Assembly: GCA_028277395.1 (NCBI GenBank) | Contig: JANQGJ010000078.1 | Location: 1 to 64,000 of the forward strand | From: Bacteroidales bacterium | Lineage (GTDB): Bacteria; Bacteroidota; Bacteroidia; Bacteroidales; F082 | DNA length: 64,000 bases | Reading direction: 5' to 3' | In this document: piece after piece, positions 10,952-60,411 of the stretch | Layout of the letters: each line of letters starts with the position of its first letter | Numbering within the stretch: position 1 is the first letter of the stretch | The notes under the pieces: model-generated | What the model saw: only the letters and a program-made list of their open reading frames with translations | The model's database searches: none | What the model was told of the DNA's origin: nothing | Position numbers and translations under genes: made by a program

Positions 10952-10963
10952 AATTTTCGCCTC

Positions 10964-17303: not shown

Positions 17304-17418
17304 TAATTGTTTATATCCGTTTTCATTAAAAAGTTGGTAGTAACTATTGATATAAGCAGAATGCTCCTCAATAATTACTTTTTCACTACTTTTATAACCA
17401 AAACAAAACAGTAGTAAT

Positions 17419-19056: not shown

Positions 19057-19068
19057 TTCGGTTGCCAA

Positions 19069-19809
19069 ATGAAAGAAGTCCGGTTATCTCAATATCAAAA
19101 GCGGCATATTCAGTTTGTGAATAACAAGGTCGCCAAATCCATTATGGATAATGCTTTAATTGTCAGGGGAGAAAAAATTCTGGTTGCAGTCAGTGGTGGC
19201 AAAGACTCATTGGTACTGCTTGAAGCTTTGTCTACATTAAGAAAATACGATTTTCTTGATTTTAATCTGGAAGCAGTACACATTGATGTTCAGCAGGTAC
19301 CATATAAAACCAGCCGTGAACAGTTGGAATTCCTTTGCAAAAAATTAAATGTTCCCATACATTTTGTTAATATTAATGTCGATCTGGATAATACCGATAA
19401 ATCGCCTTGCTTTGTATGCTCATGGCACAGGCGAAAGGCACTTTTTTCTTTTGCTGAAAAGCATAATTTTGACAAACTTGCTTTGGGTCATCACATGGAT
19501 GATGCCGTGGAAACACTTATCATAAACATGGCTTATCATGGTAACATCAGTTCATTACCTGCTAAATTGAATATGTTTGACGGACAGGTAGTTATAATTC
19601 GACCACTTATATTATTGTCTAATAAAGACATGCAGGAATATGCTAATATTCGAAACTACCCAAAACAAACAGAATCGTGTCCGTATGAGGATAAAACAAA
19701 GAGAACAACAGCGCGTGATTTGGTAAAACAAATGGAAGTGTTACATCCCAAAGCAATGAGGAATATTTTCAGAAGTATGAATAATATTGATAGGGAATAT
19801 TTGCCATGA
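19069..19809 (+). CDS. TtcA-family PP-loop ATPase, probable tRNA thiolation enzyme
   Basis: The 246-residue protein has the PP-loop S-G-G-K-D-S (residues 42-47), which activates a tRNA base with ATP, and three cysteines placed as in TtcA: C114-F-V-C117 and Cys204 in T-E-S-C-P-Y. In TtcA (tRNA 2-thiocytidine synthase) these bind a 4Fe-4S cluster. L-G-H-H-M-D-D-A-V-E-T and S-C-P-Y-E-D fit the same family. TtcA thiolates cytidine 32 of certain tRNAs; substrate identity here is inferred from the family. The gene follows the Kef antiporter after 12 bases. A short inverted repeat (ATCAGGTT/AACCTGAT) lies just after the stop but lacks a good T-run. Confidence 0.85.
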   Translation: MKEVRLSQYQKRHIQFVNNKVAKSIMDNALIVRGEKILVAVSGGKDSLVLLEALSTLRKYDFLDFNLEAVHIDVQQVPYKTSREQLEFLCKKLNVPIHFVNINVDLDNTDKSPCFVCSWHRRKALFSFAEKHNFDKLALGHHMDDAVETLIINMAYHGNISSLPAKLNMFDGQVVIIRPLILLSNKDMQEYANIRNYPKQTESCPYEDKTKRTTARDLVKQMEVLHPKAMRNIFRSMNNIDREYLP

Positions 19810-39772: not shown

Positions 39773-39784
39773 GTGTAGCTGGTT

Positions 39785-42583
39785 TTAAAATGAGAAAAGA
39801 TTAATTTTATTAACTAAACCCAAATGCCATAGAGCATGAAGGATTGAATTTTTAAATAGGTTATGCTTATCTCCTGACTGAATATTTGTTGAGTAAAATC
39901 CACCATGAGGGTCCACAAGGAGAAATTCATTGTTTTTCAGCCTTACGAAGTCCAATATTGGCTCACCATTGGCCCAGTTTCTTCTAAGCAAATGTATTTT
40001 ACCACCTGTGTTTTTAAAAATCCATGATAAATATGCATATGAGATGCAGTTAAAATAAAGTGATGTTGAGAAATGCTCTTCTTCATTGTAATTACAAATC
40101 TCCCCATTTTCCATATAGTTTGTTATTTCCTTGCTAAGGCATTCTATAAATGCATACCTGTTTTTGATATCGTCACGTGCATCAAAATCGGATATTTTTG
40201 CAATAGCATTTTTACTACTTGTTTTACTGGAAAATCTGTTAGTCAGCAGGCATTTCATTCTTTCTTCATTCATACTTCCGGTATTGGAATAATCAATCTC
40301 AGGAGAATCATAAAGGAGAATTCTTTCTATATATTCTTTAGTAATAATTTCTTTAAGCTTGATAAATGTAACAGATTTGTTGAGTTCTTCAACGGACTTT
40401 AAAGTAACATCGAAGTACCTTTCCCAGTAATCATATAACTCAGGAACAGGACATTTCATGTAACCCTTAGTTATAAATTCCTTATCAAAATGATAAACAA
40501 CCAGCAATATTCTGAATAACTCATTATGAAACTTCTCCTCTTCAACATAGCCAACTGTTGAATACATTGATGTATTTTGTAACATGTAAACCCAAGACCA
40601 AAACACATACAATTCAGTATTTGCATTGTAAGTATGATAGTATTTGATTACATCGAAATGAAAATATTCAAAATCAAATATTTTGGTAATATCCTCGAGA
40701 TAATTAATATTGGTTATACTGTATAAATCTTTAAAGATCAGTTTTCGCCCGTTTACAAGTATTTGGAAATCGGCAGGGTTCTCAATCTTATTCTCAATAA
40801 TCTGTGGTATTGCGTTTGCTAACTCTTTGGCAACAGTTGAGAAAACGAGACTTGGTTCAAGTAAATGGTATGAGTTATAATTAATCGAAACCATGTTTGA
40901 CTCTGTATTTATGTCATTTTGCCGGACCAGGATATGTGGATCTTCTCTTTGGAAAGGCATTGATAACAGCTTAATTACAGAATCATAGCTGGTTAGAATT
41001 TGTGTTATTGAGCTGTTAAAATCTATGCTAAAGTCATTTATATCCTCGTAAAAGTAATTATTCAATACCCTATTGTAATAGGCTTCTTCGAAGGCTTCGA
41101 TTAAAATACCCAGCTGGTTTTCAATGTGGCTGTTATTTAAAGGATTCATTTCTGGAGTTTCAGGAATTAATACCCCTTTATTGTCAATTACTGAGTCAAC
41201 GTTTTTCGCAAACTCTTCAATTATCGAAATAAAGTATTTTAGGTATTCTTTGAAATCAATAAAATAAATGTATGAAATCGGATCAAGAATTCCTGCATTA
41301 TAATTGTGATAAACCTTTAGCACCTTATCACGTACCTGCCGGGAAAGTTTTAGCTTCTTTAAATTTTCCCTGATATCCGCTAATTCAGTATTGAAGGTAT
41401 TCTTCTTTAACATTTTTTGAATGTCAATGATTTCTACTTCTTCAGGGTTATCTTCATGTCTGGTACAATCTTCGATGTTAACGAACTGTCCCTTAACTTC
41501 AAATAATGGATTTGTTTTTAATTTCCTAAAATGTTTTATCAGCTCTTTGTTACTTCTTATTTCTTTATAAATATCAAGGTTTGACTTTAGGGATTCCGGA
41601 TTCTTTTCTTTGAAATAGAAATCTGTTTTACCATTTTTAAAATGAACAATTTCTTCAAATAATTCAGGATTATTTTTGAAAAGACCTGCCTTTAAATATG
41701 GTAGATGTCCTGGAGAAATCTGATATTCAATTATCGACATCAAATTATTATTTTGAAAATCGATTTCATTATTTTGTAATCTTTCATAATTTAATCCAAA
41801 ATATGATTGAGTATCGCTGACAACATGAGAATTGAAGATCTTATCTTCATCTTCATATTTTTTGAATAAGGAATTATCAATTATTTTTTGGCAGGAGTCT
41901 GTTTTATTGTTAGAGAATAAATCAGACAATGTTAATTTACGGATTTCAAGAATACTATCGGTCAGATATTGTATTTTTCTGCTAAACATTATAATGGTTA
42001 ACTCGCACCAGTTAAATGAATTTACCAGCAAATAATTAGTTTCAGGTTTGTTGTAGAGCAGATTATCAATCTTTGTAATTACTTCGTTTAATAACTTGCT
42101 CCCGTTACCAATTAGAAGTCCGTTATTAAGTTTGATATTCATAATCTGAACGAAATCAAAATCGAAATTATCAAAATATTTTTCGATTTTAAGCTGGTCA
42201 TTTAGTTTGAAAATAGAACCAGTGAGTATTTGATAGGATGATGGTTTGGTGAAATTCTCGTCGCATGCTTTGTCCTCATGTTCCTTTTTGGATGAAAACA
42301 TGGATTCAAATACTTTTTGTGCAAATCCATAACTATCTAATAATGAGATGTATGCTATGTCGTAATGTCCCAGGAGATGGAACTTCAAGGGCTTATAAAG
42401 AAAATGTGCCAACTGGTTGTTGGCTGGTTTATCATCTTCACTAAATATTTTAAGCCCCTGATTGAAATTATCTTTGTAATTCGAATAGATATTCTCTATG
42501 CATTTCACATATTTGTCATCTTTTCCAAGAGGATAAGTTGCCAATGCTACATGAAGTGAATAAGGTAAAAATTGCTTCTCCAT
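39785..42583 (-). CDS. Large hypothetical protein (932 residues) partnered with metallophosphoesterase
   Basis: A soluble protein with no signal peptide and no clear membrane helix. It is acidic/lysine-rich, mostly helical, with many Asn and Tyr. I recognise no P-loop, nuclease or protease motif. The C-terminal end has a distinct compact block, F-V-R-L-K-N-N-E-F-L-L-V-D-P-H-G-G-F, followed by H-A-L-W-H-L-G-L. It is the first gene of the operon and lies 12 bases before the metallophosphoesterase gene. A TACATTTG box at 42637-42630 (minus strand), about 47 bases upstream of the start, is a plausible -7 element. The architecture (big sensor-like protein plus enzyme) is reminiscent of conflict systems, which is inference only. 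Confidence 0.75.
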   Translation of the reverse strand: MEKQFLPYSLHVALATYPLGKDDKYVKCIENIYSNYKDNFNQGLKIFSEDDKPANNQLAHFLYKPLKFHLLGHYDIAYISLLDSYGFAQKVFESMFSSKKEHEDKACDENFTKPSSYQILTGSIFKLNDQLKIEKYFDNFDFDFVQIMNIKLNNGLLIGNGSKLLNEVITKIDNLLYNKPETNYLLVNSFNWCELTIIMFSRKIQYLTDSILEIRKLTLSDLFSNNKTDSCQKIIDNSLFKKYEDEDKIFNSHVVSDTQSYFGLNYERLQNNEIDFQNNNLMSIIEYQISPGHLPYLKAGLFKNNPELFEEIVHFKNGKTDFYFKEKNPESLKSNLDIYKEIRSNKELIKHFRKLKTNPLFEVKGQFVNIEDCTRHEDNPEEVEIIDIQKMLKKNTFNTELADIRENLKKLKLSRQVRDKVLKVYHNYNAGILDPISYIYFIDFKEYLKYFISIIEEFAKNVDSVIDNKGVLIPETPEMNPLNNSHIENQLGILIEAFEEAYYNRVLNNYFYEDINDFSIDFNSSITQILTSYDSVIKLLSMPFQREDPHILVRQNDINTESNMVSINYNSYHLLEPSLVFSTVAKELANAIPQIIENKIENPADFQILVNGRKLIFKDLYSITNINYLEDITKIFDFEYFHFDVIKYYHTYNANTELYVFWSWVYMLQNTSMYSTVGYVEEEKFHNELFRILLVVYHFDKEFITKGYMKCPVPELYDYWERYFDVTLKSVEELNKSVTFIKLKEIITKEYIERILLYDSPEIDYSNTGSMNEERMKCLLTNRFSSKTSSKNAIAKISDFDARDDIKNRYAFIECLSKEITNYMENGEICNYNEEEHFSTSLYFNCISYAYLSWIFKNTGGKIHLLRRNWANGEPILDFVRLKNNEFLLVDPHGGFYSTNIQSGDKHNLFKNSILHALWHLGLVNKINLFSF

Positions 42584-45542: not shown

Positions 45543-45614
45543 CTACCCTTTTGGTAAGGAGAATTTACTACACTTTCAGGGTATTGACTTGAGTTACATT
45601 AGTGTTTATGTTTG
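45543..45614 (+). promoter_or_regulatory. Shared-type promoter/operator, copy 1 (407-residue protein)
   Basis: CTAC boxes at 45543 and 45568 (25 apart), then CAGGGTATTGAC with TTG at 45584-45586, exactly 20 bases, then TATGTTTG at 45607-45614. The same arrangement recurs at 47128-47198 and 53047-53118. The -7 box covers the GTG/ATG codons at 45602-45610, so translation must start further down, at 45650. Confidence 0.85.
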
Positions 45615-45649
45615 ATGTGAAACAAAATAAACAGGAAACCAGGTATATT

Positions 45650-46873
45650 ATGAGTGGACAACATGTATTTTGTAATCTTGAAAAATCACATGGAAATATA
45701 ACAAATCATGAGTTATTTCTGAAAAATAAAATGCGACCGTTTTATAAATCAGGATCAGTTAATGAGGAGTATTTGGATATGGCAGTTAAGAACCCGACAA
45801 ATATCGTCCTGCCTATGCGCTATGGAACTCTTGATGAATTGAATAATTCTGAGTATGCAGTATCACTTACAAACAGTATGGTAGAGTATATCAGCAACAG
45901 GTTTTATTTCGAAGATGGTGAGGAACTTATTGTTGATACTGTTTCATGTCTGACTGAGGATATTAATGGATTCCCGACCGGTACTACCATACTCAAAAGA
46001 GAAACAAACAAATGTGTGTTCTATTATATCAATCCTCAATTTGTTGTTAATAACAATACTTTGATAGATAACAGTTCTGATTTTGAACAATATAAATTTT
46101 CAGACGAAGAACCTGATTATGGTGCTGCCATGCTGGTTGAGCTGGCAACGGATATGTTGAATTTTGGGATCGATGATCTGGGGGCTAAACTTTTAACTCT
46201 CATATTTGGTGATGAAGAAGAAATTCAGTTTAAAGAGCTTCAAAAGGTATTTGCTCAGATAGTGAAAGATGCCAATATAGAACAAACCGTTAATGAGCAG
46301 GGAGGAAAAATCAATGCTGTCCTGCTGGATATGCTGGAGTTCTATAAAAATGTATCTGACAAAGCAGATTATATAAACGACAGACTTGCTGATTTGAATG
46401 CATCAGTTGAGATTCTTTGGAAGGAAGAATTCAGAAAAAAGGGATTACCCACATATCTTGGTGGCCAGGAGTTAAGCTTTGCAATATTACATGAACAATA
46501 TAAGGTAACCGGAAAAGAAACCATAAAACAAACAATAATTGACAGGGCCAAAAGAATATCGGAGAATGTTATTGATGAGCATAAGGTACTTTTAAAAGAA
46601 AGGCTAGACCAGGTAACTGAAGTAGAACCTTGGCCTGTACCTGAACATAACAGAGCGAGATATTATTTTGAAGATAAATTTACCGGTGATTCATATTCTG
46701 AGGAAACCAAAATTTGTTTTAATGAAAAAGATGAAGATGTTGTTATAGCAAAAATTACGAAAATCCGGGATGAACTGATTTCAAAACTCACAAAAGACAT
46801 GGACTGGATAAAGGATGTTAGTGAGAAGTTAAATGAGTTACAGCAATATCCTCTGGGAGATAAACCGAAATAA
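45650..46873 (+). CDS. Hypothetical 407-residue protein under the shared promoter
   Basis: The start is taken at the ATG at 45650 (M-S-G-Q-H-V-F), because the frame's earlier starts at 45602 and 45608 fall inside the -7 element. The product has no signal peptide. Residues about 1-150 look beta-rich (I-V-L-P-M-R-Y-G-T-L-D-E-L; C-V-F-Y-Y-I-N-P-Q-F-V-V). Residues about 155-260 are long amphipathic helices (A-T-D-M-L-N-F-G-I-D-D-L-G-A-K-L-L-T-L-I-F-G). This pattern loosely resembles the helical bundle of delta-endotoxin-type pore formers, but I see no decisive motif. The gene is monocistronic, bounded by its own promoter and a strong terminator. Sharing a promoter with the his-like operon suggests a common programme. 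Function unknown. Confidence 0.75.
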   Translation: MSGQHVFCNLEKSHGNITNHELFLKNKMRPFYKSGSVNEEYLDMAVKNPTNIVLPMRYGTLDELNNSEYAVSLTNSMVEYISNRFYFEDGEELIVDTVSCLTEDINGFPTGTTILKRETNKCVFYYINPQFVVNNNTLIDNSSDFEQYKFSDEEPDYGAAMLVELATDMLNFGIDDLGAKLLTLIFGDEEEIQFKELQKVFAQIVKDANIEQTVNEQGGKINAVLLDMLEFYKNVSDKADYINDRLADLNASVEILWKEEFRKKGLPTYLGGQELSFAILHEQYKVTGKETIKQTIIDRAKRISENVIDEHKVLLKERLDQVTEVEPWPVPEHNRARYYFEDKFTGDSYSEETKICFNEKDEDVVIAKITKIRDELISKLTKDMDWIKDVSEKLNELQQYPLGDKPK

Positions 46874-47198: not shown

Positions 47199-47376
47199 AA
47201 AGCTGTAATAATTTTAATATCCATGAGGGATATTATTACCGGTAGAAACAATCCATTGCAAGCTGCAATACCATCTCTGGAAACAAACAGTTAAATATTT
47301 CCACCAAAGTCTGAAAATCATTACGATTATAAAAATGAATGAGGATGGTTAACCGGTTATTATTATTGACTTGATT

Positions 47377-48762
47377 ATGAAACTAAGTAAAGCTTTATAT
47401 AATGTAAATCAATCATATGTGGGTCATGAAACTGTTTTCATGCCTCCAAACTGGAAGTCAAAATATCCCGTGGAGTTCACATTTATTTATGTCAGTAATG
47501 ATTTAAATAGTTCCGATTTTTCAAGATATTATAAAGTATGTCACCAAATGAATGTGGTTAATCCCAGGTTGTTCACTCCCGGAATCATCAGATATTCATC
47601 ATTATTTCATCCTGCATTTTACATGTCTGTTTCAAGATCCGACAGAAATCTGTCTCCAAATATTAAGAGCTTTATTTCAGAAATAACGCCATTAGACATG
47701 TCGGTTGAAGTATCACCGGAGTTGTGCGTTAATACAGTTCATTACTATCTTCAGTCTATGATTTTCCTTACCGGAGTAACCCTTAGCGCCGCGTTAGTAC
47801 AGAATCGCTGGTCGCATGGTACTATTGAGAGCAAACTCAACAGACTGTGGCAGGCAGGAAAGCTGGCAGAAAAGTTTGGGATCACGGAGTTAGCTGATTT
47901 AAATATCTGTGACTTTGTTTATGATCAGGCGGCTAATCTGGTTACACAACCTCTGAATGTGCTTGTGAATTTAAAATTGTTTTTTTCGCGTTTACTTGGT
48001 AAACTATCAAAATCAATTCCACATAAGGAACTCATTATGAAAAAAGCGTTGTTAACCAACTCACAAAAACAAAGATTTGGTTTTGTAAAGCAATTGTCAG
48101 CACTCTTAGGTAACAATTTATTAAGTATTATAGTTTATGGTTCTTCCACAAACAGTGAAAAGTTTGCAGATTATGATGTGATTATAGTTGTAAAGGAGTT
48201 ATCGGAAGGGCTTAAAATACTAGGTGGTAAAGCCCCAACATACAACGGACTGGAATTAAACATCAGTATTTTCGATGAAGAAGACTTCCTGATTTATCAA
48301 CTGGTATCAGGCGATAATTTACATGATCATTCCATATGTTTATTTGGAGAAGCAATGGTTCCCCAAAAACCTTATGGTGATCTGTTGGCCAGAAATTATA
48401 GCTTTGGTTTCATCCGTCTGCGACAATTACTCGGAATGGCAGCCCATATTGATGATATTGCTTCTGATACAGATGATAAAAGTAATCTGCTTGCCTATTT
48501 TACAAAAATTCCTCTCAACGTAAGCAAAGGAATACAGGGCAGTTATGGTGGTATAACAAATAATGAAGAATTGCGGAACTGGTTTCATAATGAAATAAAT
48601 TTTGACGTTGATGATCATATTTCAGGTTCTAAAAATGGAAAACAGGTTGAGGCCATCTCCGCAGCAGCCTGCGCAACACTGGAAGTTCTAAAATATTACG
48701 ATGAAAAGTTAAACATATGTGTAGGTCGTAATTCCAAAAAAACAATAACGATAAATGGATAA
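47377..48762 (+). CDS. Nucleotidyltransferase-like protein, first gene of the his-like operon
   Basis: The ATG at 47377 (M-K-L-S-K-A-L-Y) is preferred to a TTG two codons earlier. The 461-residue protein has a polymerase-beta-type nucleotidyltransferase core near residues 250-275: S-I-I-V-Y-G-S-S-T-N-S-E-K-F-A-D-Y-D-V-I-I-V, the G-S-x9-D-x-D pattern whose aspartates bind metal and NTP. A third acidic position may lie in L-E-L-N-I-S-I-F-D. The first about 240 residues and the last about 120 residues match nothing I recognise. Such enzymes transfer NMP to a small molecule, RNA or protein. It overlaps the SAICAR-synthetase-like gene by eight bases, and heads a seven-gene operon of nucleotide-handling enzymes. 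Confidence 0.75.
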   Translation: MKLSKALYNVNQSYVGHETVFMPPNWKSKYPVEFTFIYVSNDLNSSDFSRYYKVCHQMNVVNPRLFTPGIIRYSSLFHPAFYMSVSRSDRNLSPNIKSFISEITPLDMSVEVSPELCVNTVHYYLQSMIFLTGVTLSAALVQNRWSHGTIESKLNRLWQAGKLAEKFGITELADLNICDFVYDQAANLVTQPLNVLVNLKLFFSRLLGKLSKSIPHKELIMKKALLTNSQKQRFGFVKQLSALLGNNLLSIIVYGSSTNSEKFADYDVIIVVKELSEGLKILGGKAPTYNGLELNISIFDEEDFLIYQLVSGDNLHDHSICLFGEAMVPQKPYGDLLARNYSFGFIRLRQLLGMAAHIDDIASDTDDKSNLLAYFTKIPLNVSKGIQGSYGGITNNEELRNWFHNEINFDVDDHISGSKNGKQVEAISAAACATLEVLKYYDEKLNICVGRNSKKTITING

Positions 48763-49777
48763 TACAAAGAAAGAAAATATAGAAATTGTCATATTAGCGG
48801 GGAAGAATCCTGTGAAAGATACAGCAATAATTGAGAAAAAACTCAAAGAAGCCGGAGTTGTTACTGTCATTTCTGAGAGCAAAATCCCTGGCAAACCGTA
48901 CATTGATATGGATGAACAATTATCACTCAAAGGAAAAGACTTACAAATTGGAGATATAATTACTGGTTTACACCTAAACTTCAATGAGCTGCCTCTGCTG
49001 GTTGAAGGTGAGAGCAAAATTATCAGGCTACTGGGTAACAGCATTGTCCTTGAAATGTTTAAACCAACAGTTTACTCATTTTCAAAGAACAGATACGGAA
49101 TTGTTGAAGGAACCGAAGAAATCAGGGCAAGGTTTACTGCTGAAATTTTCAAACATATGAACCTTTTTAATAACAAAGAAGGTAACTATAAACTTAACAA
49201 TGCATTTTTAGGAATGATAAACAGTCCGGAAGGAACGATTATTGCCCAGAAAAGGCTGGAACCGGGGAATCTTGAGGTCCGGGTAAAACGATTTCATGTT
49301 GGCTCTCCTGTGCATAGGTACAGATATACCTGGAAATACCCAACTGTAACCGAAAACGGGAAGCCACTTCAGAAATGGGACAGATTTAAGTCACCAGTAG
49401 TATGTTTCGACTGGCGAAATCCATTGACTGATGATGATGGAAACAGGCTTGCCGATGAACCCATATCCGATGATTATGCAGCAATCTGGATTGAAGATGT
49501 TCCAAGCGCAAAGCAATTGGCTTCAGAAACCTTCCTGTGGCTTGAGCAACTTTTTGGTAACGCAGGACTTACGCTCATCGATATTTGTTTTTTCATTGAT
49601 CAGTCGGGGAAATACATTTTTGGAGAAATAAGTCCCGATTGCATGCGCGTAAGAGAAGGTACCAAAAGTCCCGGTGATCTCCAAAGCCTGGACAAAGATC
49701 TCTGGCGGGAAGGTGAAAAAGAAGAGAATCTGAAGAAAAGCTATGAACGACTATATAATCTGATTTTTAACAATTAA
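48755..49777 (+). CDS. SAICAR synthetase (PurC)-like ligase with N-terminal extension
   Basis: SAICAR synthetase joins aspartate to the carboxylate of CAIR using ATP in purine synthesis. Residues about 80-330 fit this fold: L-L-V-E-G-E-S-K-I-I-R (ATP loop, usually E-G-K-T/S-K), N-L-E-V-R-V-K-R-F-H-V-G-S-P, T-L-I-D-I-C-F-F-I-D, G-E-I-S-P-D-C-M-R (usually E-I-S-P-D-T-x-R) and L-D-K-D-L-W-R-E-G. At 340 residues it is about 75-100 longer than ordinary PurC, because residues 1-75 form an extra domain (E-I-V-I-L-A-G-K-N-P-V-K-D). It is in an operon with hisG, hisA and hisIE homologues, so a role on a purine-like carboxylate intermediate is inferred; housekeeping purine synthesis is less likely given the context. 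Confidence 0.82.
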   Translation: MDNTKKENIEIVILAGKNPVKDTAIIEKKLKEAGVVTVISESKIPGKPYIDMDEQLSLKGKDLQIGDIITGLHLNFNELPLLVEGESKIIRLLGNSIVLEMFKPTVYSFSKNRYGIVEGTEEIRARFTAEIFKHMNLFNNKEGNYKLNNAFLGMINSPEGTIIAQKRLEPGNLEVRVKRFHVGSPVHRYRYTWKYPTVTENGKPLQKWDRFKSPVVCFDWRNPLTDDDGNRLADEPISDDYAAIWIEDVPSAKQLASETFLWLEQLFGNAGLTLIDICFFIDQSGKYIFGEISPDCMRVREGTKSPGDLQSLDKDLWREGEKEENLKKSYERLYNLIFNN

Positions 49778-49788
49778 ACTATTGAGTT

Positions 49789-50106
49789 ATGAACACATTA
49801 ACAGTAAAAAACAAAAGACTAAAAATGTCACCAAAAGGAATGATAACACTGTCCACTGCAGCCAGAAAAGGGCTTGGTATGGAAATTGGTAAATCAAAAT
49901 TTGTAAATGTTTCCAATGATGGAGAAAGTATAATAATCAACGGAGAGCTAAAAAAAGGTGAAAAATCACATAAAGTATCTCCGGCAGGTTTGCTGAACTT
50001 GAAAGGAGAAGAACGCGATATATTACTTAAGGGTGATAATCGTCATTACTGGATGAAGGTGGATGATGACATGAAAATGGTAATTATTTGCCCTTCATTA
50101 GATTAG
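49789..50106 (+). CDS. Small AbrB/SpoVT-like protein in the his-like operon
   Basis: A 105-residue soluble protein starting 11 bases after the SAICAR-synthetase-like gene. K-M-S-P-K-G-M-I-T-L-S-T-A-A-R-K-G-L-G-M resembles the swapped-hairpin AbrB/MazE DNA-binding motif (normally x-x-G-x-I-x-I-P-x-x-x-R-x-x-L-G-I). A weaker second copy follows at K-V-S-P-A-G-L-L-N-L-K-G-E-E-R. It could be an autoregulator of the operon or its promoter family, or a non-DNA-binding structural relative. Family assignment is by motif pattern only. Confidence 0.55.
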   Translation: MNTLTVKNKRLKMSPKGMITLSTAARKGLGMEIGKSKFVNVSNDGESIIINGELKKGEKSHKVSPAGLLNLKGEERDILLKGDNRHYWMKVDDDMKMVIICPSLD

Positions 50107-50181
50107 GCTGTACAGTAATTCGCATTTTGTTTATAAATATTAATTGCTGCTACACAAGGATATGGGATCCCTTTTGATTTA

Positions 50182-50712
50182 ATGAAAAAAGACAATTATA
50201 TTATCATAGCTCTGGACGGGCATGATGGAAGTGGAAAAACAACATTATGTAAACTTCTTGCTGCTTCTCTGGGAGGCACCTATGTTAGACCTTTTACCGT
50301 GGAGTATGGCGAGTCGCTGATCAGGTCAGCAGAAATGAAGAATTATCATGAAACCATATCCATAGGTGAAGAAGCTATCAGAGAAGCATGTAATAATCAT
50401 GAAGGTGGTTTGCTTATCATGGACAGACACTGGATGACAGTTTTATCATTGCTGCCAAAAGTTTGGCATTCAAGATGGTACATGTTCCCTCCGGTCATAT
50501 TATGCTGGTGCGACTTACATACCACAAAGCAAAGGATAGCCTCAAGAAATGAAGAAAAATTTAGTGATAATTACCATAGCTACTATCTGGAAACTTATAA
50601 AAAACTGGCACATTTTTACGATGTACCGGTTATTGATACCGGTAATAATTCGATAAATACAAGTATATTTGAGATTATCAACTGGCTGAAAAACAATAAA
50701 ATAAAACTATGA
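50182..50712 (+). CDS. Thymidylate-kinase-like P-loop nucleotide kinase
   Basis: A 176-residue P-loop protein: Walker A G-H-D-G-S-G-K-T (residues 13-20) following A-L-D-G, as in thymidylate kinases, and M-D-R-H-W-M-T-V-L-S at the position of the D-R-Y motif that contacts the nucleotide. R-I-A-S-R-N-E-E-K-F and V-I-D-T-G-N fit the lid and C-terminal parts. It is shorter than normal Tmk (about 205-215), so a dedicated monophosphate or nucleoside kinase is more likely than the housekeeping enzyme. It begins 75 bases after the AbrB-like gene, and its stop overlaps the hisG-like start by four bases (ATGA). Confidence 0.8.
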   Translation: MKKDNYIIIALDGHDGSGKTTLCKLLAASLGGTYVRPFTVEYGESLIRSAEMKNYHETISIGEEAIREACNNHEGGLLIMDRHWMTVLSLLPKVWHSRWYMFPPVILCWCDLHTTKQRIASRNEEKFSDNYHSYYLETYKKLAHFYDVPVIDTGNNSINTSIFEIINWLKNNKIKL

Positions 50713-51359
50713 ATAAACTACAACATAAAAGCGGTTTGGTAATAGCTTTCGGAAAAGGAAGACTATTTAATGAAACAATCGAGAATTTTGATTTCAATAA
50801 TGATCCCCATGCAAATGATTTTACTTCAGGCAGGATACCGGTCTATGAAGATGTCGATAGAAATCTTACATTTATATCAGTACGACATGCAGACCTAAAC
50901 TGGATGCTTAAAAACAAACATATTGATATTGCAGTTGGCAGCTCACTCTGGTTTTTAAACGATAGCGAAACATCACTTAAAAAAGCGCTCACTATTCAAA
51001 CTAAGAACTATCACCTCGACCTGATAGCGAAAAAAGGAGTTAATATATGTCATATTCGAAAGGTTGCAACAAAGTTTAAGAATATTGCACAGGCATATTT
51101 TAAAAACAGGGGACAGAATGTTGAAATAGTTATGATGAACGGTGCACACGAAGTTGCCTTAACTCTTGGAATTGCAGACGCAATAATTGATGTTGTTGAA
51201 ACAGGGCAGACAATTCGAAAATTGAACCTTCATCAACTTGATATTATTTATAAGCTGTATCATGAGGTTTGGTTGCGGGATGATGAGGATTACGATAAAA
51301 ATATGGCTGCGCTAAACGCATTATTAAATAAGAAACATTCGGAAATACTGCAGTTATAG
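50709..51359 (+). CDS. hisG: ATP phosphoribosyltransferase (HisG) homologue, catalytic core only
   Basis: HisG joins ATP and PRPP to give N1-phosphoribosyl-ATP. The 216-residue chain has G-K-G-R-L-F-N-E-T near the N-terminus, V-R-H-A-D-L-N-W-M-L in place of R-x-x-D-V-P-x-Y-V, V-A-T-K-F-K-N-I-A-Q-A-Y-F (usually I-A-T-K-Y-P...Y-F), N-G-A-H-E-V-A, and the PRPP loop D-A-I-I-D-V-V-E-T-G-Q-T (residues 157-168). It ends there without the roughly 75-residue ACT-like domain that mediates histidine feedback in long HisG, and no hisZ (partner of short HisG) is nearby. It overlaps the kinase gene by four bases. I infer a specialised paralogue not feedback-controlled by histidine. Confidence 0.88.
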   Translation: MNKLQHKSGLVIAFGKGRLFNETIENFDFNNDPHANDFTSGRIPVYEDVDRNLTFISVRHADLNWMLKNKHIDIAVGSSLWFLNDSETSLKKALTIQTKNYHLDLIAKKGVNICHIRKVATKFKNIAQAYFKNRGQNVEIVMMNGAHEVALTLGIADAIIDVVETGQTIRKLNLHQLDIIYKLYHEVWLRDDEDYDKNMAALNALLNKKHSEILQL

Positions 51360-51392
51360 TTAACAGGATTGTACTTATAAAACTAAAATGAA

Positions 51393-52139
51393 ATGAGATT
51401 AATTCCTTCGATTGACATATTAAACGGAAAATGTGTCAGGCTTGTTAAAGGTAATTTTTCGAAAGTAACTATCTATGGGAATCAACCAGTTGAATTCGCA
51501 AAAAGGCTGGAAGATACAGGAATTAAATATCTTCATATGATTGATTTGGATGGTGCTGTAAAGGGAACTGTGGTAAACCATCATACATTAAATGAAATTG
51601 CATTAAGAACAAATCTTAGTATTGAATATGGCGGAGGAATTCAGTCTACGGAGGATGCCCGGAAGATATTCGATTGCGGAGCAACACAAATAATTGGTGG
51701 CACAATTGCAATAAAGAAACCGGATATTATTGCAGAATGGCTGGGAAAATTCGGAAAAGACAGGATTATTCTGGCTGCTGATACTAAAAACGGGATGATA
51801 GCCGTAAATGCATGGAGAAAAACCACTGAAACAGGTTTAACAGAGCTGATACAAAATTTCAAAAAAAAAGGAGGCAGGTACGTAATATGTACAGATATAG
51901 CAAAAGACGGGACTTTGGACGGTGCTTCAAATACATTGTATAAAAAACTATTATCCACTATAAATATAAACCTGATCGCCAGTGGGGGTATTTCATCAAT
52001 AAGCGATTTAATTGAATTGAAAAAAACAGGTTGTGATGGTGCGGTTTTTGGCAAATCAATTTACGAAAACCGGATAACTCTAAAAGATTTAAGCAGATCC
52101 GTAAGCGATGGGTTATTAAATATTGGTCATACATCATAA
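51393..52139 (+). CDS. hisA: ProFAR isomerase (HisA) homologue
   Basis: HisA converts ProFAR to PRFAR by an Amadori rearrangement. The 248-residue TIM barrel has the HisA start I-P-S-I-D-I-L-N-G-K-C-V-R-L (catalytic Asp8), L-H-M-I-D-L-D-G-A, E-Y-G-G-G-I-Q-S, L-A-A-D-T-K-N-G (the second catalytic Asp position), C-T-D-I-A-K-D-G-T-L-D-G and A-S-G-G-I-S-S (phosphate sites). The order and length fit HisA rather than HisF, which would read D-K-N-x-G-R-V-V-K-G near the start. It lies between hisG and hisIE homologues; there is no hisF or hisH to use its product. Confidence 0.92.
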   Translation: MRLIPSIDILNGKCVRLVKGNFSKVTIYGNQPVEFAKRLEDTGIKYLHMIDLDGAVKGTVVNHHTLNEIALRTNLSIEYGGGIQSTEDARKIFDCGATQIIGGTIAIKKPDIIAEWLGKFGKDRIILAADTKNGMIAVNAWRKTTETGLTELIQNFKKKGGRYVICTDIAKDGTLDGASNTLYKKLLSTININLIASGGISSISDLIELKKTGCDGAVFGKSIYENRITLKDLSRSVSDGLLNIGHTS

Positions 52140-52146
52140 AAGCAAT

Positions 52147-52740
52147 ATGTTGAACTTAAATTTTCAAAAAAGTGACGGGCTTATACCCGTGATAATTCAG
52201 GATCATACCACCTGTAAAGTGTTAATGCTGGGTTACATGAATATGGAAGCTTATGAGAAAACCCTTACAGACAATACCGTGACATTTTTCAGCAGGTCGA
52301 AAAACCGGTTGTGGACCAAAGGTGAGACATCCGGAAATTACCTGAGAGTAAAGGAAATACTCATGGATTGTGACTATGATTCATTATTGATAAAAGTATT
52401 ACCGGGTGGTGATGTTTGTCATAAGGGATCAATGTCGTGTTTTAAAGATAACAGCATTAAGGGTACAATATATAATCTGGAGAAAACGATCAATAACAGA
52501 GTTACTGAGAATACTACGGATTCATACACTAATGATCTTTACAAAAAAGGGCTTGACAGAATACTTCAGAAAGTAGGTGAGGAGGCTGTTGAATTAATAA
52601 TTGCATCGAAGGATGAAGATAAGGAAGAAATAAAAAACGAGACCGCAGATTTGTTTTACCATTTACTTGTTCTTTTGAAAAAAAAGTCATTAACAATTGA
52701 AGATATTGAGAATGTACTGTTTAAAAGAGCTGCTGAATAA
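52147..52740 (+). CDS. hisIE: Bifunctional PR-AMP cyclohydrolase / PR-ATP pyrophosphatase (HisIE) homologue
   Basis: The start is taken at the ATG at 52147 (M-L-N-L-N-F), seven bases after the hisA-like stop; an ATG at 52123 inside hisA is less likely. The N-terminal HisI half has V-L-M-L-G-Y-M-N-M-E-A, S-R-S-K-N-R-L-W-T-K-G-E-T-S-G-N, D-C-D-Y-D and C-H-K-G-S-M-S-C-F, the metal-binding Asp and Cys residues of the cyclohydrolase. The C-terminal HisE half has G-L-D-R-I-L-Q-K-V-G-E-E-A-V-E-L-I and E-T-A-D-L-F-Y-H-L-L-V-L-L. Both active sites look intact. It would turn PR-ATP into ProFAR, feeding HisA. Last gene of the operon; no terminator was found in the following 60 bases. Confidence 0.93.
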   Translation: MLNLNFQKSDGLIPVIIQDHTTCKVLMLGYMNMEAYEKTLTDNTVTFFSRSKNRLWTKGETSGNYLRVKEILMDCDYDSLLIKVLPGGDVCHKGSMSCFKDNSIKGTIYNLEKTINNRVTENTTDSYTNDLYKKGLDRILQKVGEEAVELIIASKDEDKEEIKNETADLFYHLLVLLKKKSLTIEDIENVLFKRAAE

Positions 52741-55600: not shown

Positions 55601-58600
55601 GTGATTACAAATGAAAAAGATAGATTTGAATATCTCAGGTTTTTAAGAAAGTTACTTAATCGTGAGTATATGTATGGCTTGTCACTGGACGTGCAGGTTA
55701 GTGATGGCATTAGTACCGAAAAATTCGACCTTGCTGATAATAAAATGCATGGTTATGTTAAAGTATTTTACAATTTCGATTCAGATGAAAGAAGAGACTA
55801 TGTTGATGAGGTCAACAAATTAATGTTTGCTCTGGAGCGTAATAATATTAACAGTAACAAAACATTGCACGTAGTATTCGATTCAAATATAGGTGGCAAT
55901 GATCTTGAATATTTTAATTTGAATATTGAAAAGTCTAAGAATGTTTCATACCATATTATCGACAACTCACATATAAATGAACTGTCCGAGAAGTACAATA
56001 TTAAACTTGAAGGGGCAGAAAAGGAAGATAAATCAGAAACAGAGATAATTGATGTTGATGAAAAAATAATCAACCTCATAAACTCCGGTAAAAACTTCTA
56101 CACTCTTGGTAATGAAAAAGTAATAGGTCAGAAAAAGAAATCATTAAGTAAAGGTGTATGGGAAATAGGTATTAATAAAAAGCTTACAGATGTAGTAAAA
56201 AATGTTAAAGTTGGCGATATTGCATTTCTTGAAACTATGACAATAAATAAAGATTCAGAAAATGCACAAATAAATGCCATAGGAGTTATTACTGAAAATC
56301 CGGGAGACGGTGAGAAGCTAACTGTTGACTGGGAGTATACAAAAAAGATCGGGTTTCCAATTATTAACCATATCCAGCACAATATCTACAAGGTGGAAAG
56401 TAAGGATAAAAGAAAAGTACTGGAAAGCTTATCTCAACAACTCCCCGAGTTTTTCGATATCCTTAAAAAACTGGGCGGTTATGTAAGCCTGCCTTCAGCT
56501 CTCAAGGAAAGCCTGTCTGAAAGTTTTAAAATTTCATTGAAAGATATTAAAACAAAACAATTCTGGTGGATAAATATTAAGAAAGACCGTTGGTATTTTG
56601 ACAGTGGTGTTAAGATCGGTGATGAATTGTCATTTCCAACACACAGACAAAGTGGTACAAAACATAAAATCTTTAATCACTTTTTCAATGTTAAAAAGGG
56701 GGATTATTGCATTGGCTATCAAACTGGTGATACTACCAGAGCAATACTTGAGATAACGAAAGAAGCTGTCAACAGAAATTTGGATGAAATTCGGTTCCGG
56801 GTAGTTTACATATTTAAAGACAAAGAACAAATTATTTATAGTGCTCTAAAATCTGTTGATCTTTTTAATGATTCGGAGGTCATTAAAACTAATATTAACG
56901 GCGACCTGTTCAAACTAACCAGGGAGGAATTCGAATTCTTATGCCCGGCAACAATTTTAAGTAAAGACATTGAAGAAACTGTTACAGTACCGGTAAAAAC
57001 CGGACTTAATAATGATGGGGCATACACCACAAAAGATCTGTTAAATATCGAAAATGATGTAAGATCGTTTGCTTTGATCCTTGCTTCAAAAGATATAAAA
57101 CCACCTATTGCGGTGGCTTTGTTTGGCAAATGGGGTTCGGGAAAAAGCTTCTTTATGGAACACATCTCAAAAAGGGTGAAGGAATTATCCAAACACCAGA
57201 GATTTCTGGAAAAAGGAGAAGACGAAGATGAAATAAAAGAAACGGGAAAAGAAAAGGAATTTTGTAAGGGCATTGCCCAAATAAAATTCAATGCCTGGTC
57301 ATATCTTGACGCCAACCTTTGGGCTGGGTTAATAACAACCATATTCGAGAAGCTTGATGAATTTATTACTGGTGATAATGTAAAGGAAGCTGTAAAGAAA
57401 GAAGTACACAATACTGTTAGTAAGAAGTTAAAGATTGTTCATGATGAAAAGGTAATACTTGAAAAAGAGATCAGGGAACTTGAATCAGACAAGAAGAACA
57501 TCAAAGATAGTCTTGATAAACTTAAGACTGATAAAAAAAGTATATCGGAGAATGTCCAGAAGAAAACGGTTGAAGATCTAAAAAATGAAGCAAAAAAACT
57601 TACAGCAGACATTGAGGATAATGTAAAATCGGAGCTTGATAGCTACGGAATAAGTCAGCAAAAGCTTGATGAGATGTCGCCTGCAAGTTTATTGGATGAA
57701 GTGGGTTCATGGGTTACTTTTGTTAAAAATGTTGGGAAATTCAGTCCTAAAAGTATCGTAATTGCCATTATAATACTGTTTGTATTACTATTTTATTCAG
57801 TCGATCCGTTTAACTGGTTTGAGACTGTAAAACAAATTTTAACCAGTAACATCGCTTTGTTTTTCGGAATAGCAGGTCCTGCTTTTATGAAAATTTATAA
57901 TTCATATTCCAGGTATAGTAAGGTTCTGCAACCTGTAATTAATTATAAAAATGAGTTTAATAAAGCTTTTGAAACGGTTAAACACAACTTTGAAAAGGAA
58001 CAAAGTATGTTAAATCAGGATATAGCTCAAAAACAACATGAGATAGAGGCAAAAGAACACGAATTAACAAAGGTTACATCACAGATAGAAGAGTACGAAT
58101 TTGAGATTAAACACTCAATAACCAGAAGAGCATTCAATAGTTTCATCAGCAGGAAATCAAAAGGCAAAGATTATGAAAAGCACCTGGGCTTAATATCCAT
58201 TATCAGGAAGGATTTTGAAACGTTAAGTGCTTTATTTGAAGAGGTAACTATTCCTGGAAATATTGACTCCAAAGAAAGAGACAGGCTGGAGGAAAAGAAG
58301 AAAGCAAGTGATAAATTCAGAGGATATTTTAAAAAACCACTTGACCGGATAATATTGTATATAGATGACCTGGACAGGTGTTCAGACGATAAAGTGTTGG
58401 AAGTAATTCAGGCTGTACATTTATTAATGGCATTCCCGTTGTTTAATGTTGTTGTTGGGGTTGATATACGATGCCTGAAAAATGCATTGATTTACAGAAA
58501 TTTGCTGCAATACAACCAATTCTCATCTTTACAGGAGGTAGTAGAACAGGGAATTCATGTTATATCGCCTGATGAATATCTGGAAAAAATATTCCAAATC

Positions 58601-59323
58601 CCGTTCCAGCTTGAAGATCCCGGTGATAACCTGATAAAAGGGATGGTAGATACTTTTTTAAAGGATCAAATAGAAAAAGAGGTTACAGAAACACAGGAAA
58701 CAACAGGAAAGCAGGAAATTGATGACGACAAAAAAGATGATGATAAAAACGATACAAAAGTTGAAACCAAAACTGAAAAAGACGAGGATGTAGCAGGAAA
58801 CAACGAAAAAGATAAAGAAGAAGTTCAAAAAGATAGCAAAGGAGATGAAAATGAAGGAGATGAAAATATTGTTGTAACACCCAAAGATTTAGAATTAACC
58901 GCCCTGGAAGTAGAATTGTTGCAGGAAATGGCATGGATAGTAGGAAGTAATCCAAGAACCATAAAGCGTTTCATAAATATTTACCGAATAGTGCGGTCGC
59001 ATCAGGGACTGAAATACTCTCATAATGAGAAGCATAAGGAGTTTTTGTCAATAATGTTTATACTGGCCATAAATATCGGACAGTATAAAATGTACGCTGA
59101 AACATTAATTAATTGTATTGAAAAAGATGAGGCCTCAAAACTCTCGGAAGTTTTAAATAAAAAAGAATTGGATGATTTTAAAGATTTGAATAAGATCGTA
59201 TTGAGAATGGCTAAAACAGATGCGATCCGGGAAATTTTGCAATATCCCGGATCACAATTCACAAAACACATACCTCTTGTTGGCAGGTTTTCCTTTGGTG
59301 AAATACAAAATGGTGGTGAATAA
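55601..59323 (+). CDS. KAP-family P-loop NTPase with PUA/EVE-like domains, likely defence protein
   Basis: 1240 residues, GTG start (an in-frame stop lies five codons upstream). In order: residues 1-140, an alpha/beta domain resembling a degraded restriction-endonuclease fold (V-K-V-F-Y-N-F; V-S-Y-H-I-I-D-N); about 165-275 and 318-440, two PUA/EVE-like domains, the second opening F-W-W-I-N-I-K-K-D-R-W; then the KAP NTPase with Walker A G-K-W-G-S-G-K-S (509-516), K-F-N-A-W-S-Y (562-568), coiled coil 600-680, two membrane helices (about 718-735, 747-765), coiled coil 790-840, Walker B I-L-Y-I-D-D-L-D-R-C (918-927), a disordered acidic linker (about 1027-1092) and N-P-R-T-I-K-R-F-I-N (1117-1126). 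EVE domains read modified bases in known defence proteins. With the following nuclease gene, an anti-phage role is inferred. Confidence 0.85.
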   Translation: MITNEKDRFEYLRFLRKLLNREYMYGLSLDVQVSDGISTEKFDLADNKMHGYVKVFYNFDSDERRDYVDEVNKLMFALERNNINSNKTLHVVFDSNIGGNDLEYFNLNIEKSKNVSYHIIDNSHINELSEKYNIKLEGAEKEDKSETEIIDVDEKIINLINSGKNFYTLGNEKVIGQKKKSLSKGVWEIGINKKLTDVVKNVKVGDIAFLETMTINKDSENAQINAIGVITENPGDGEKLTVDWEYTKKIGFPIINHIQHNIYKVESKDKRKVLESLSQQLPEFFDILKKLGGYVSLPSALKESLSESFKISLKDIKTKQFWWINIKKDRWYFDSGVKIGDELSFPTHRQSGTKHKIFNHFFNVKKGDYCIGYQTGDTTRAILEITKEAVNRNLDEIRFRVVYIFKDKEQIIYSALKSVDLFNDSEVIKTNINGDLFKLTREEFEFLCPATILSKDIEETVTVPVKTGLNNDGAYTTKDLLNIENDVRSFALILASKDIKPPIAVALFGKWGSGKSFFMEHISKRVKELSKHQRFLEKGEDEDEIKETGKEKEFCKGIAQIKFNAWSYLDANLWAGLITTIFEKLDEFITGDNVKEAVKKEVHNTVSKKLKIVHDEKVILEKEIRELESDKKNIKDSLDKLKTDKKSISENVQKKTVEDLKNEAKKLTADIEDNVKSELDSYGISQQKLDEMSPASLLDEVGSWVTFVKNVGKFSPKSIVIAIIILFVLLFYSVDPFNWFETVKQILTSNIALFFGIAGPAFMKIYNSYSRYSKVLQPVINYKNEFNKAFETVKHNFEKEQSMLNQDIAQKQHEIEAKEHELTKVTSQIEEYEFEIKHSITRRAFNSFISRKSKGKDYEKHLGLISIIRKDFETLSALFEEVTIPGNIDSKERDRLEEKKKASDKFRGYFKKPLDRIILYIDDLDRCSDDKVLEVIQAVHLLMAFPLFNVVVGVDIRCLKNALIYRNLLQYNQFSSLQEVVEQGIHVISPDEYLEKIFQIPFQLEDPGDNLIKGMVDTFLKDQIEKEVTETQETTGKQEIDDDKKDDDKNDTKVETKTEKDEDVAGNNEKDKEEVQKDSKGDENEGDENIVVTPKDLELTALEVELLQEMAWIVGSNPRTIKRFINIYRIVRSHQGLKYSHNEKHKEFLSIMFILAINIGQYKMYAETLINCIEKDEASKLSEVLNKKELDDFKDLNKIVLRMAKTDAIREILQYPGSQFTKHIPLVGRFSFGEIQNGGE

Positions 59324-59394
59324 ATGATCGAAGCGAAGTTAACTGAAGCAAAAAATAATGCTAATTGTATACAACATAAAAATTACTACTTTTA

Positions 59395-59426
59395 TTGTTA
59401 CAAAGAAAAATCACGAAATAATTTTG
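59395..59426 (+). promoter_or_regulatory. Candidate promoter of the Mrr-HU gene
   Basis: TTG (59395-59397), 21 bases, TAATTTTG (59419-59426): a Bacteroidota-type promoter 17 bases before the GTG start. The Mrr-HU gene could thus be expressed independently of the NTPase gene, from a nearly leaderless transcript. Confidence 0.55.
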
Positions 59427-59442
59427 TCTTAAAACGTAACAG

Positions 59443-60411
59443 GTGAATAAGCATGAATTAATAGAAGCTATGATGCTGGAAACAAATCTGAACGAGCAGG
59501 GTTTTGCAGAAAAAGCATTAAAAAGTTTCATGTCTGATTTGAAGAATGAAAAGTTAAAAGTTATTAATCCTTTGACTAATAATTATATTGATCTGAACAA
59601 AAGAAAGCAGTATTATGTAAGTAATTTTAAGATATTTGAAATAATTTCTGAAGGATTATACAAAAAACTTCTGGAAAAGGATTTCGATCCTGAAAAAACA
59701 AAAATTTCTAGAAACAAAAAAATTACAGGTCGGAGCGGGGCAAATCACGAGATTGACATATTAATTGAGATATCTACAGAACTAAAAACATTTAAAATAG
59801 CAGTTGAATGTAAATACCTTACCAGGAAAGTGTCGAAACAGGTAGTTGCAGGATTTGTGGAGGTATTAAACGATTTAAATATAACCAATGGCTGTATAAT
59901 CAGTAAACTGGGATATCAGACAGGAGCTGTTAAACTGGCCTTCTTCCATGGCATAAGACTGGATATTATGAAAGTCCCTGATGAAGAAGAAAATGATACT
60001 GAAGATGACGGAGCTGCGGTTGTACTACTTTCGAATGCTGAATTGAAACAGGTATTATTATCAAACCTGGCAAACTTGGTTGAAAATAATTTTTATTTGT
60101 TTAAGAAAAATGCATTGAATGGAATTGTAGTAAGTACTAACATAATTACACACGGGAATCTGATAGAAAAGTTGAACAAACATGCGGGTTCAAAAAAATA
60201 TATAACAAACCGATCGCTAAATGCTTTATTAGATTCTACTACCTATGCACTCAACAAAGGTCAGCGTGTAAGTTTAAGAGTATTTGGCTCATTTTCGGTA
60301 TCAAAAAGAGCAGCACAAACCGGAAGGAACCCTAAAACCAGACAGGAAATCAAGATACCGGCATCCAAAGTTGTAAAATTCAAACCGTACACAAAGCCGG
60401 GAGGTTTTTAG
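59443..60411 (+). CDS. Mrr-type restriction endonuclease fused to an HU DNA-binding domain
   Basis: 322 residues, GTG start. The N-terminal about 40 residues (M-N-K-H-E-L-I-E-A-M... A-L-K-S-F-M) resemble the first helices of HU. Residues about 95-180 are an Mrr-type nuclease core: G-A-N-H-E-I-D-I (Asp105), V-E-C-K (Glu122, Lys124), then G-F-V-E-V-L-N-D-L-N-I-T-N-G and the G-Y-Q-T-G-A-V-K-L-A element, so the D...ExK metal site is intact. After an acidic linker (about 180-192), residues about 237-320 are a full HU/IHF-type domain with the DNA-binding arm G-R-N-P-K-T-R-Q-E-I-K-I-P and A-S-K-V-V-K-F-K-P. Mrr enzymes cut modified DNA; HU bends it. It follows the KAP NTPase gene by 119 bases; joint action in defence is inferred. 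Confidence 0.9.
   Translation: MNKHELIEAMMLETNLNEQGFAEKALKSFMSDLKNEKLKVINPLTNNYIDLNKRKQYYVSNFKIFEIISEGLYKKLLEKDFDPEKTKISRNKKITGRSGANHEIDILIEISTELKTFKIAVECKYLTRKVSKQVVAGFVEVLNDLNITNGCIISKLGYQTGAVKLAFFHGIRLDIMKVPDEEENDTEDDGAAVVLLSNAELKQVLLSNLANLVENNFYLFKKNALNGIVVSTNIITHGNLIEKLNKHAGSKKYITNRSLNALLDSTTYALNKGQRVSLRVFGSFSVSKRAAQTGRNPKTRQEIKIPASKVVKFKPYTKPGGF

Follow-up and report, generated by a model that had tools for sequence, protein, structure and literature searches.

The window analysed here is a stretch of 64,000 nucleotides of contig JANQGJ010000078.1 from the Bacteroidales bacterium assembly GCA_028277395.1. It contains an operon of seven genes in which homologues of the histidine enzymes HisG, HisA and HisIE stand beside a nucleotide kinase and a PurC-like enzyme of the phosphoribosylaminoimidazole-succinocarboxamide (SAICAR) synthetase family. 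The PurC-like protein is the hub of a rare family, for which 11 distinct loci were read, copies of one contig and near-identical phages being counted once each. With a probability of roughly 0.55, the operon encodes a dedicated pathway making an unusual purine-like, perhaps coformycin-like, nucleotide. Held at the same strength, the best reading of the module is that phosphoribulosyl-formimino-5-aminoimidazole-4-carboxamide ribonucleotide (PRFAR) would be made, converted by the PurC-like enzyme and then phosphorylated; its reactions, product and purpose we infer, from what was observed directly: homology, kept motifs, gene content and linkage, the fusion, and absences within the searches made. 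The first half of this route has published precedent.

The operon was confirmed as real. As the original prediction had claimed, seven co-directional open reading frames (ORFs) are tightly packed at 47371/47377-52740:

47377..48762, + strand: ORF1, 461-463 amino acids (aa), C-terminal half with a nucleotidyltransferase-like GSS..D.D motif (motif; homologue at locus L059)
48755..49777, + strand: PurC-like enzyme (SAICAR-synthetase family), hub of the module (Pfam PF01259, alignment, clade)
49789..50106, + strand: 105-aa protein whose two halves resemble each other; possibly AbrB-like and regulatory (by-eye motif resemblance only)
50182..50712, + strand: Tmk-like P-loop nucleotide kinase with DGHDGSGKT and DRHWMT (Pfam, phrog_761, motifs)
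50709..51359, + strand: short-form HisG, 216 aa (TIGR00070, motifs)
51393..52139, + strand: HisA, the phosphoribosyl-formimino-5-aminoimidazole-4-carboxamide ribonucleotide (ProFAR) isomerase (TIGR00007, motifs)
52123..52740, + strand: HisIE, phosphoribosyl-AMP cyclohydrolase / phosphoribosyl-ATP pyrophosphatase (NF002747, motifs)

ORF1 overlaps the PurC-like gene by 8 bases and the kinase gene overlaps hisG by 4 bases; gaps of 11 and 75 bases follow the PurC-like and the 105-aa gene, and 33 bases separate hisG from hisA. Translation of HisIE may start at TTG (52123), within the end of hisA, or from an internal ATG that lies 7 bases past it. Curated cut-offs were passed by HisG (TIGR00070, 94.7 bits, cut-off 75.75), HisA (TIGR00007, 239.6 bits, cut-off 228.95) and HisIE (NF002747, 275.2 bits, cut-off 187). 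The PurC-like protein passed Pfam SAICAR_synt (39.8 bits, cut-off 20) and matched no NCBIfam model; it carries EGESK, FKPTVYSF, FDWRNP, GEISPDC and SLDKDLWR. The Tmk-like kinase predicted originally was upheld as a P-loop kinase by Pfam AAA_18 (29.8 bits, cut-off 29.4); it matched the thymidylate kinase family phrog_761 at 5.9e-16 and stayed under the cut-off of Pfam thymidylate kinase (25.1 bits, cut-off 27). All five proteins keep catalytic-type motifs. For ORF1, there was no Pfam match, the best NCBIfam E-value was 0.079, a profile search of PDB gave nothing meaningful and no match was found in phages or plasmids. The 105-aa protein had no Pfam match and only a chance match in a profile search of PDB. 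The names 'nucleotidyltransferase' and 'AbrB-like' given to these two earlier thus describe motifs, no profile supporting them.

HisG, HisIE and HisA make PRFAR from ATP and phosphoribosyl pyrophosphate (PRPP). The host genome (4.86 Mb, 103 contigs, 95% complete) was searched for HisG, the HisA/HisF family, HisD and PurC. The sole HisG was the operon copy. Five matches to the HisA/HisF family were obtained, of which only the operon HisA was full length, the others being partial (at most 36.4 bits); neither HisF, in this family search, nor HisD was found. In 14 positive-control genomes, HisG was found in 13, the HisA/HisF family in 14 and HisD in 13. A full housekeeping PurC (247.8 bits) lies on another contig of the host genome. 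Since HisF and HisD were not found, the operon set cannot make histidine in this bacterium, which seems unable to make it, and the view that this is not a histidine operon stood: dispersed copies of hisF or hisD, as in a scattered histidine pathway, did not turn up elsewhere in the genome. With no HisF found, PRFAR would not be taken on to histidine or 5-aminoimidazole-4-carboxamide ribonucleotide (AICAR), and the PurC-like enzyme is its natural user. A housekeeping his operon with a long HisG, for which a search had been suggested, was not seen. Among 50 genomes of the host's family, HisG matched in 10 including the host; 40 of the 49 others were without it, among them all four other members of the host genus, so that the family as a rule lacks a housekeeping his operon. 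The nine other genomes with HisG have eight long frames (289-314 aa) and one pair of broken pieces, and the 216-aa HisG of the host is of another kind than these long HisGs.

Relatives of the PurC-like protein were found by scans with alignments and a motif pattern. Peptide-pattern scans from the window protein alone gave no matches, and a second motif pattern recovered only the already known 335-kb viral contig. A tblastn search of phage records yielded 15 Lak megaphages with 34.6-35.8% identity over 77% of the protein, two of which were read in code 15 (TAG=Q); a search of plasmids gave no match. Carriers are the Bacteroidota host, Lak megaphages, other viral contigs, a deltaproteobacterial metagenome-assembled genome (MAG), bacteria of the Candidate Phyla Radiation (CPR), Verrucomicrobiota and a Planctomycetia MAG. 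Two of the 11 loci are the window operon and that of the Lak megaphages; the remainder are:

L055/L071: one 335-kb viral contig
L069/L070: two viral contigs with an identical kinase-PurC fusion protein
L010/L049: one 141-kb viral contig, with only the C-terminal part of the PurC-like gene
L057: deltaproteobacterial MAG
L059: Opitutaceae MAG
L062/L119: Planctomycetia MAG, fragment
L064: Saccharibacteria
L065/L104: Falkowbacteria
L118: genome of the Opitutaceae MAG's phylum, 5.7-Mb contig

The gene was present in none of 99 other genomes of the host's family. Within the host's phylum, the host itself was the one true carrier among 395 genomes; the seed was likewise the only one in the phyla of the Falkowbacteria (1/379) and Planctomycetia (1/324) genomes. 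The phylum of the Opitutaceae genome gave two of 318, one being the seed, and the group of an Atopobium genome, centred on a chance pattern match, none of 396. L118 was the only new member added by these five group searches. Two further weak matches, G908 (34.9 bits, Falkowbacteria phylum) and G1371 (19.8 bits, Opitutaceae phylum), were left uninspected. Set aside as housekeeping-type PurC were 39 weak-match loci (20 plus 19 non-host genomes), which scored 17.6-50.8 bits against the module profile and were mostly 233-258 aa long (exceptions 184, 419 and 697). Whole module PurC-like proteins scored at least 183.5 bits against this profile and the host's housekeeping PurC 6.0 bits.

With SAICAR synthetase PurC, the PurC-like protein shares the PF01259 domain, and its profile search of PDB returned solved SAICAR synthetases along with two entries of PAICS type and a single chance match. 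It differs in matching no NCBIfam model, in standing beside a second PurC in the host and in its phylogenetic position: eight module proteins formed one clade, with all 15 housekeeping rows across a 100/100 branch. For this tree, housekeeping rows were thinned to 15, L087, L100 and L088 were dropped, and L118, L010, L059 and L062 were not included; the host's own housekeeping PurC forms a very long branch. Furthermore, FDWRNP stands at the FDYKN-type stretch of PurC.

What the enzyme does with its substrate can be read in two ways. CofB, a SAICAR-synthetase homologue, reportedly converts PRFAR to 8-ketocoformycin-5'-phosphate (Ren et al. 2020, PNAS). CofB is not known to ligate anything, and because of this the word 'ligase' in the original prediction may be wrong, while its proposal that PRFAR is diverted and then modified persists as the best reading, in line with the recurring HisG, HisA/HisIE and kinase partners and the kinase-PurC fusion. 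Alternatively, the protein could be a true ATP-dependent ligase, joining an amino acid and a carboxylated or N1-ribosylated imidazole nucleotide to an amide which the kinase then phosphorylates, giving a new product that is not coformycin-like. We regard this as doubtful. In its favour, EGESK, GS/T..HRY, GEISPDC.R and LDKD.WR are kept, and parts of these stretches align with solved SAICAR synthetases; the FDWRNP replacement, however, means that substrate handling may have changed, and the repeated presence of HisG, HisA and HisIE suggests PRFAR as substrate, a compound lacking the free carboxylate that a ligation would use.

Eight of the 11 loci have a kinase close to the PurC-like gene or joined to it. 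L069 carries the fusion; in L064, L010 and L118 the two genes overlap, in the window, L059 and L057 a single gene lies between them, and in Lak two genes do. The L069 fusion is 427 aa long; its PurC part scored 183.5 bits, and its kinase part gave an E-value of 2e-8 in a search of two sequences and no Pfam match at 0.01. In L010 (9340-10037), a TGA at 9927 lies in frame within the kinase gene, next to the C-terminal-only PurC-like gene, as in a decayed copy, an assembly error or recoding. Known coformycin-type clusters have a dehydrogenase that acts and a phosphate that is removed. Against this removal, the kinase as frequent partner suggests that a nucleotide, and not a nucleoside for export, is probably made. 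The idea resembles prokaryotic viperin, where an enzyme making an odd nucleotide stands beside a nucleotide kinase; no radical-SAM family was found by Pfam among the seven operon genes.

HisG is near the PurC-like gene in five loci (window, Lak, L071, L057 and L065), and a HAM1 gene (inosine triphosphatase family) likewise in five, namely the phage-type Lak, L071, L057 and L065, and L064. HisA and HisIE occur in three, as separate genes in the window and fused in L057 (89-1336) and L071 (10876-12123). These HisA-HisI-HisE fusions have 415 aa, are 42% identical, and all three domains exceed their Pfam cut-offs; no such fusion is known to us from print. In Lak, an RNA-ligase-like gene (named by eye) is followed by genes for a 150-aa protein, HisG (92.5 bits), a P-loop kinase, HAM1 and a CoaD-like nucleotidyltransferase, and then by the PurC-like gene; tblastn found neither HisA nor HisIE in the Lak records. 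The 335-kb viral contig carries HAM1, HisG, the PurC-like gene and the fusion, the deltaproteobacterial MAG the fusion, HisG, the PurC-like gene, HAM1 and a kinase, and the Falkowbacteria locus HisG, the PurC-like gene and HAM1. The CoaD-like gene of Lak (L008, 11411-11902) matches Pfam CTP_transf_like, and near the L071 module lies a CoaE-like kinase (18750-19352, by eye only), so that coenzyme-A-type genes are found in both.

Lack of conservation of the seven genes in related genomes had been named as a refuting result, and taken literally it came about: the full set was seen in no other genome, although a four-gene part is shared by the Opitutaceae MAG in the window order ORF1, PurC-like gene, 105-aa protein, kinase. 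There, the ORF1 homologue (38% identical) lies directly upstream of the PurC-like gene and the 105-aa copy (47% identical) has the same place; the PurC-like gene contains an N run, and the last 300 bases before the contig end hold no His gene. Directly upstream of the ORF1 homologue, one frame (694-2724, with an N run) encodes a deaminase-like domain and a HAD acid phosphatase.

The phage loci also raise the question whether the phage product is a deoxynucleoside or nucleoside triphosphate analogue put into phage DNA, the bacterial operon being a captured or repurposed copy. The 2-aminoadenine system is a phage base-modification gene set of comparable type. In such sets (phrog_1112 PurC), too, an enzyme of the PurC family encoded by a phage occurs with genes for a nucleotide kinase and of the NTP-pyrophosphatase family; they differ from the module, which is linked to HisG and a HisA-HisI-HisE fusion and has only weak phrog_1112 matches. 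We know of no phage system with that linkage. A DNA base would fit the position of the kinase-PurC fusion, in whose vicinity genes for DNA polymerase and anaerobic ribonucleotide reductase lie, the HAM1 genes as a nucleotide-pyrophosphatase family in five of the loci, and the coupling of PRPP to dATP by PenA described in the available part of PMC12648386. We nevertheless consider it unlikely: the annotated neighbours, which cover part of the window, are not phage genes, and a seven-membered base would presumably pair poorly. Matches to HisG, HisA or HisIE from records labelled Listeria, Staphylococcus, Salmonella, Acinetobacter or 'Bacteriophage sp.' were left out of the phage genes, as they look like bacterial DNA in phage assemblies. 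Likewise, the phage-named records CAKLQF020000038.1 (murA, hisG and hisD annotated together) and OR844989.1 and OR846787.1 (matches to hisG, hisA and hisIE) are probably host DNA.

Trees of HisA and HisIE were small (7 and 5 rows). The window HisA (85/94) and HisIE (99/98) grouped with an ordinary-type contig bearing HisA, a second HisA/HisF-type gene and HisIE, separate from the L057/L071 pair (100/99 for HisA, 96/94 for HisIE). A clade (96/97) unites the HisGs of Lak, L071, L057 and L065, with the window HisG as a long branch elsewhere. As the window HisA/HisIE are of another lineage than the phage-type fusion, the PRFAR-making enzymes were probably recruited to the PurC-like gene at least twice. 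The ordinary type of the window HisA and HisIE would also suit a remnant histidine operon which feeds AICAR to purine synthesis next to unrelated neighbours. This is highly improbable: HisF, needed for AICAR release, was not found in the host genome, which has a separate PurC, and distant genomes and phages repeat the association of the PurC-like hub with these partners.

Formycin and pyrazofurin, named originally as precedents, gave way to the coformycin, pentostatin and adechlorin clusters (cof, pen and ade; Actinomycetota) as the nearest, with HisG, HisA/PriA and a SAICAR-synthetase homologue. The available text of PMC13055916 describes, for the adechlorin cluster, a SAICAR synthetase, the ProFAR isomerase AdeK (complementation showed HisA activity) and the hisG homologues AdeC and AdeL, neither of which substitutes for HisG in E. 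coli; another hisG homologue is penA. According to the accessible part of a review, PenA couples PRPP to dATP and the function of PenC is unclear (PMC12648386). Shared with these clusters, as far as both texts were available, are the joint recruitment of a HisG homologue and a SAICAR-synthetase homologue, entry via histidine-pathway intermediates and, with adechlorin, a ProFAR isomerase, AdeK there and HisA here (PMC13055916, PMC12648386). The HisG homologue is in the operon and in 4 of the 10 other loci, the SAICAR-synthetase homologue is separate from the housekeeping PurC, and a ProFAR isomerase is available for PRFAR. Unlike in coformycin-type clusters, HisIE is inside the operon, no dehydrogenase was recognised among the seven genes, a nucleotide kinase is the commonest partner, and the carriers are the Bacteroidota host, Verrucomicrobiota, CPR, the deltaproteobacterial MAG and jumbo phages.

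In the proposed pathway, HisG would join PRPP to ATP or dATP, HisIE would then remove pyrophosphate and open the ring, and HisA would isomerise the product to PRFAR, as suggested by the family models passed and the motifs kept. Following the coformycin precedent, the PurC-like enzyme would convert PRFAR, most likely by CofB-type cyclisation to an 8-ketocoformycin-type 5'-monophosphate. The Tmk-like kinase, to judge from its linkage in 8 of 11 loci and the one fusion, would give the diphosphate and, with host enzymes, the triphosphate. ORF1 and the 105-aa protein may be accessory in the bacterial version, for nucleotide transfer or regulation; phages carry the same core, often plus HAM1.

Several observations weigh against this pathway. 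Pfam found no short-chain dehydrogenase (CofA/PenB) among the seven genes, which leaves the last reduction of the known pathway without an enzyme there, and the likeness of the PurC-like protein to CofB is seen at the level of the SAICAR-synthetase family. The kinases fall into two sets (window, L059, L064 and L118; Lak, L057 and L010), whose mutual likeness is mainly confined to the P-loop; no Pfam kinase family is matched by the kinase of Lak or of L069, so the label is weaker there. In 6 of the 11 loci no HisG is nearby. Of the five of these carriers that were searched, two genomes have HisG matches on other contigs (G495, in two pieces, and G496); record searches found none in the Saccharibacteria bin or the L010 and L069 viral records, and this bin, a CPR carrier with the PurC-like gene, two kinases and HAM1, has no HisG match at all. 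The complete seven-gene set was seen in one genome only. Finally, a single clade of all six module HisGs was not rejected (p-AU 0.067, approximately unbiased test), which weakens double recruitment for HisG. Absences are weak evidence because several loci are cut by contig ends.

As to purpose, the nucleotide might act in conflicts between phages and bacteria. According to the available portions of the respective papers, RADAR converts ATP and dATP to inosine triphosphate (ITP) and dITP, and Cad1 converts ATP to ITP (PMC9994260, PMC11645235); adenosine deaminase is inhibited by coformycin and pentostatin (PMC8724604, PMC12648386). A coformycin-type phosphate could block such (d)ATP-deaminating defences in the phage version, with HAM1 clearing (d)ITP, or poison phage nucleotide metabolism in the bacterial version. 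This chemistry, HAM1 in the four phage-type loci and L064, the ankyrin-TIR and DUF4062-AAA proteins near the L118 PurC-like/kinase pair and the KAP-NTPase and Mrr-like genes downstream of the operon are consistent with the idea, which we also rate as doubtful. Defence-like neighbours occur at two loci only (L118 and the window), are without a background rate and are suggestive only; PADLOC matches to the operon were weak and short (kinase to VakA, 31.6 bits over 28 residues; ORF1 to PDC-S09, 16.1 bits); and the available text of the RADAR and Cad1 papers mentions no such inhibitor (PMC9994260, PMC11645235). More broadly, it is possible, and put forward tentatively, that bacteria and giant phages share a nucleotide weapon in which enzymes taken from histidine and purine synthesis turn ATP or dATP into a phosphorylated coformycin-type nucleotide. 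It could inhibit deaminases, poison polymerases or be built into DNA, and its companions would be HAM1 in phages and ORF1 and the small protein in bacteria.

Other genes of the window were inspected as well. About 3 kb downstream of the operon (55601-60411), a KAP-family NTPase of 1240 aa with a QatA/PifA-like match over ~100 residues is a possible defence gene; it is followed by another possible defence gene, an Mrr-type nuclease domain fused to a HU-type DNA-binding domain. A 423-aa protein without a family match over cut-off (45602-46873) lies ~500 bases upstream of the operon. At 38138-42583, a calcineurin-like phosphoesterase (weak match to PDC-S10, a candidate defence family) stands beside a 932-aa protein without a PADLOC match. 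The window also encodes a protein whose type IX secretion sorting domain (Pfam) suggests Bacteroidota. In L118, the ankyrin-TIR and DUF4062-AAA proteins are at 10421-12655 and 15888-17786.

A search of a limited body of literature found no report joining phage, ATP phosphoribosyltransferase or hisG and SAICAR synthetase; coformycin, SAICAR synthetase and histidine were joined by PMC13055916 alone. For coformycin with phage gene clusters, only tRNA modification work appeared, available in part (PMC12300143), and for hypermodified phage nucleobases with kinase and SAICAR, nothing relevant was among the matches listed. The main text of three Lak papers (PMC6784885, PMC8346664, PMC11165621) does not contain 'phosphoribosyl', 'SAICAR', 'histidine', 'purine' or 'Ham1'; the available text of a huge-phage paper mentions purine synthesis genes in general (PMC7162821).

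If the coformycin-like pathway is true, a pathway of actinobacterial nucleoside antibiotics (of fungal pentostatin also, by the reference titles of partly available sources) would extend to other bacterial phyla and to some of the largest phages known, and a nucleotide kinase would be a new frequent partner of the coformycin-type gene set. It would offer a testable reason why megaphages carry HisG although searches for HisA and HisIE found none there, and the products would be a candidate new class of natural nucleotide analogues.

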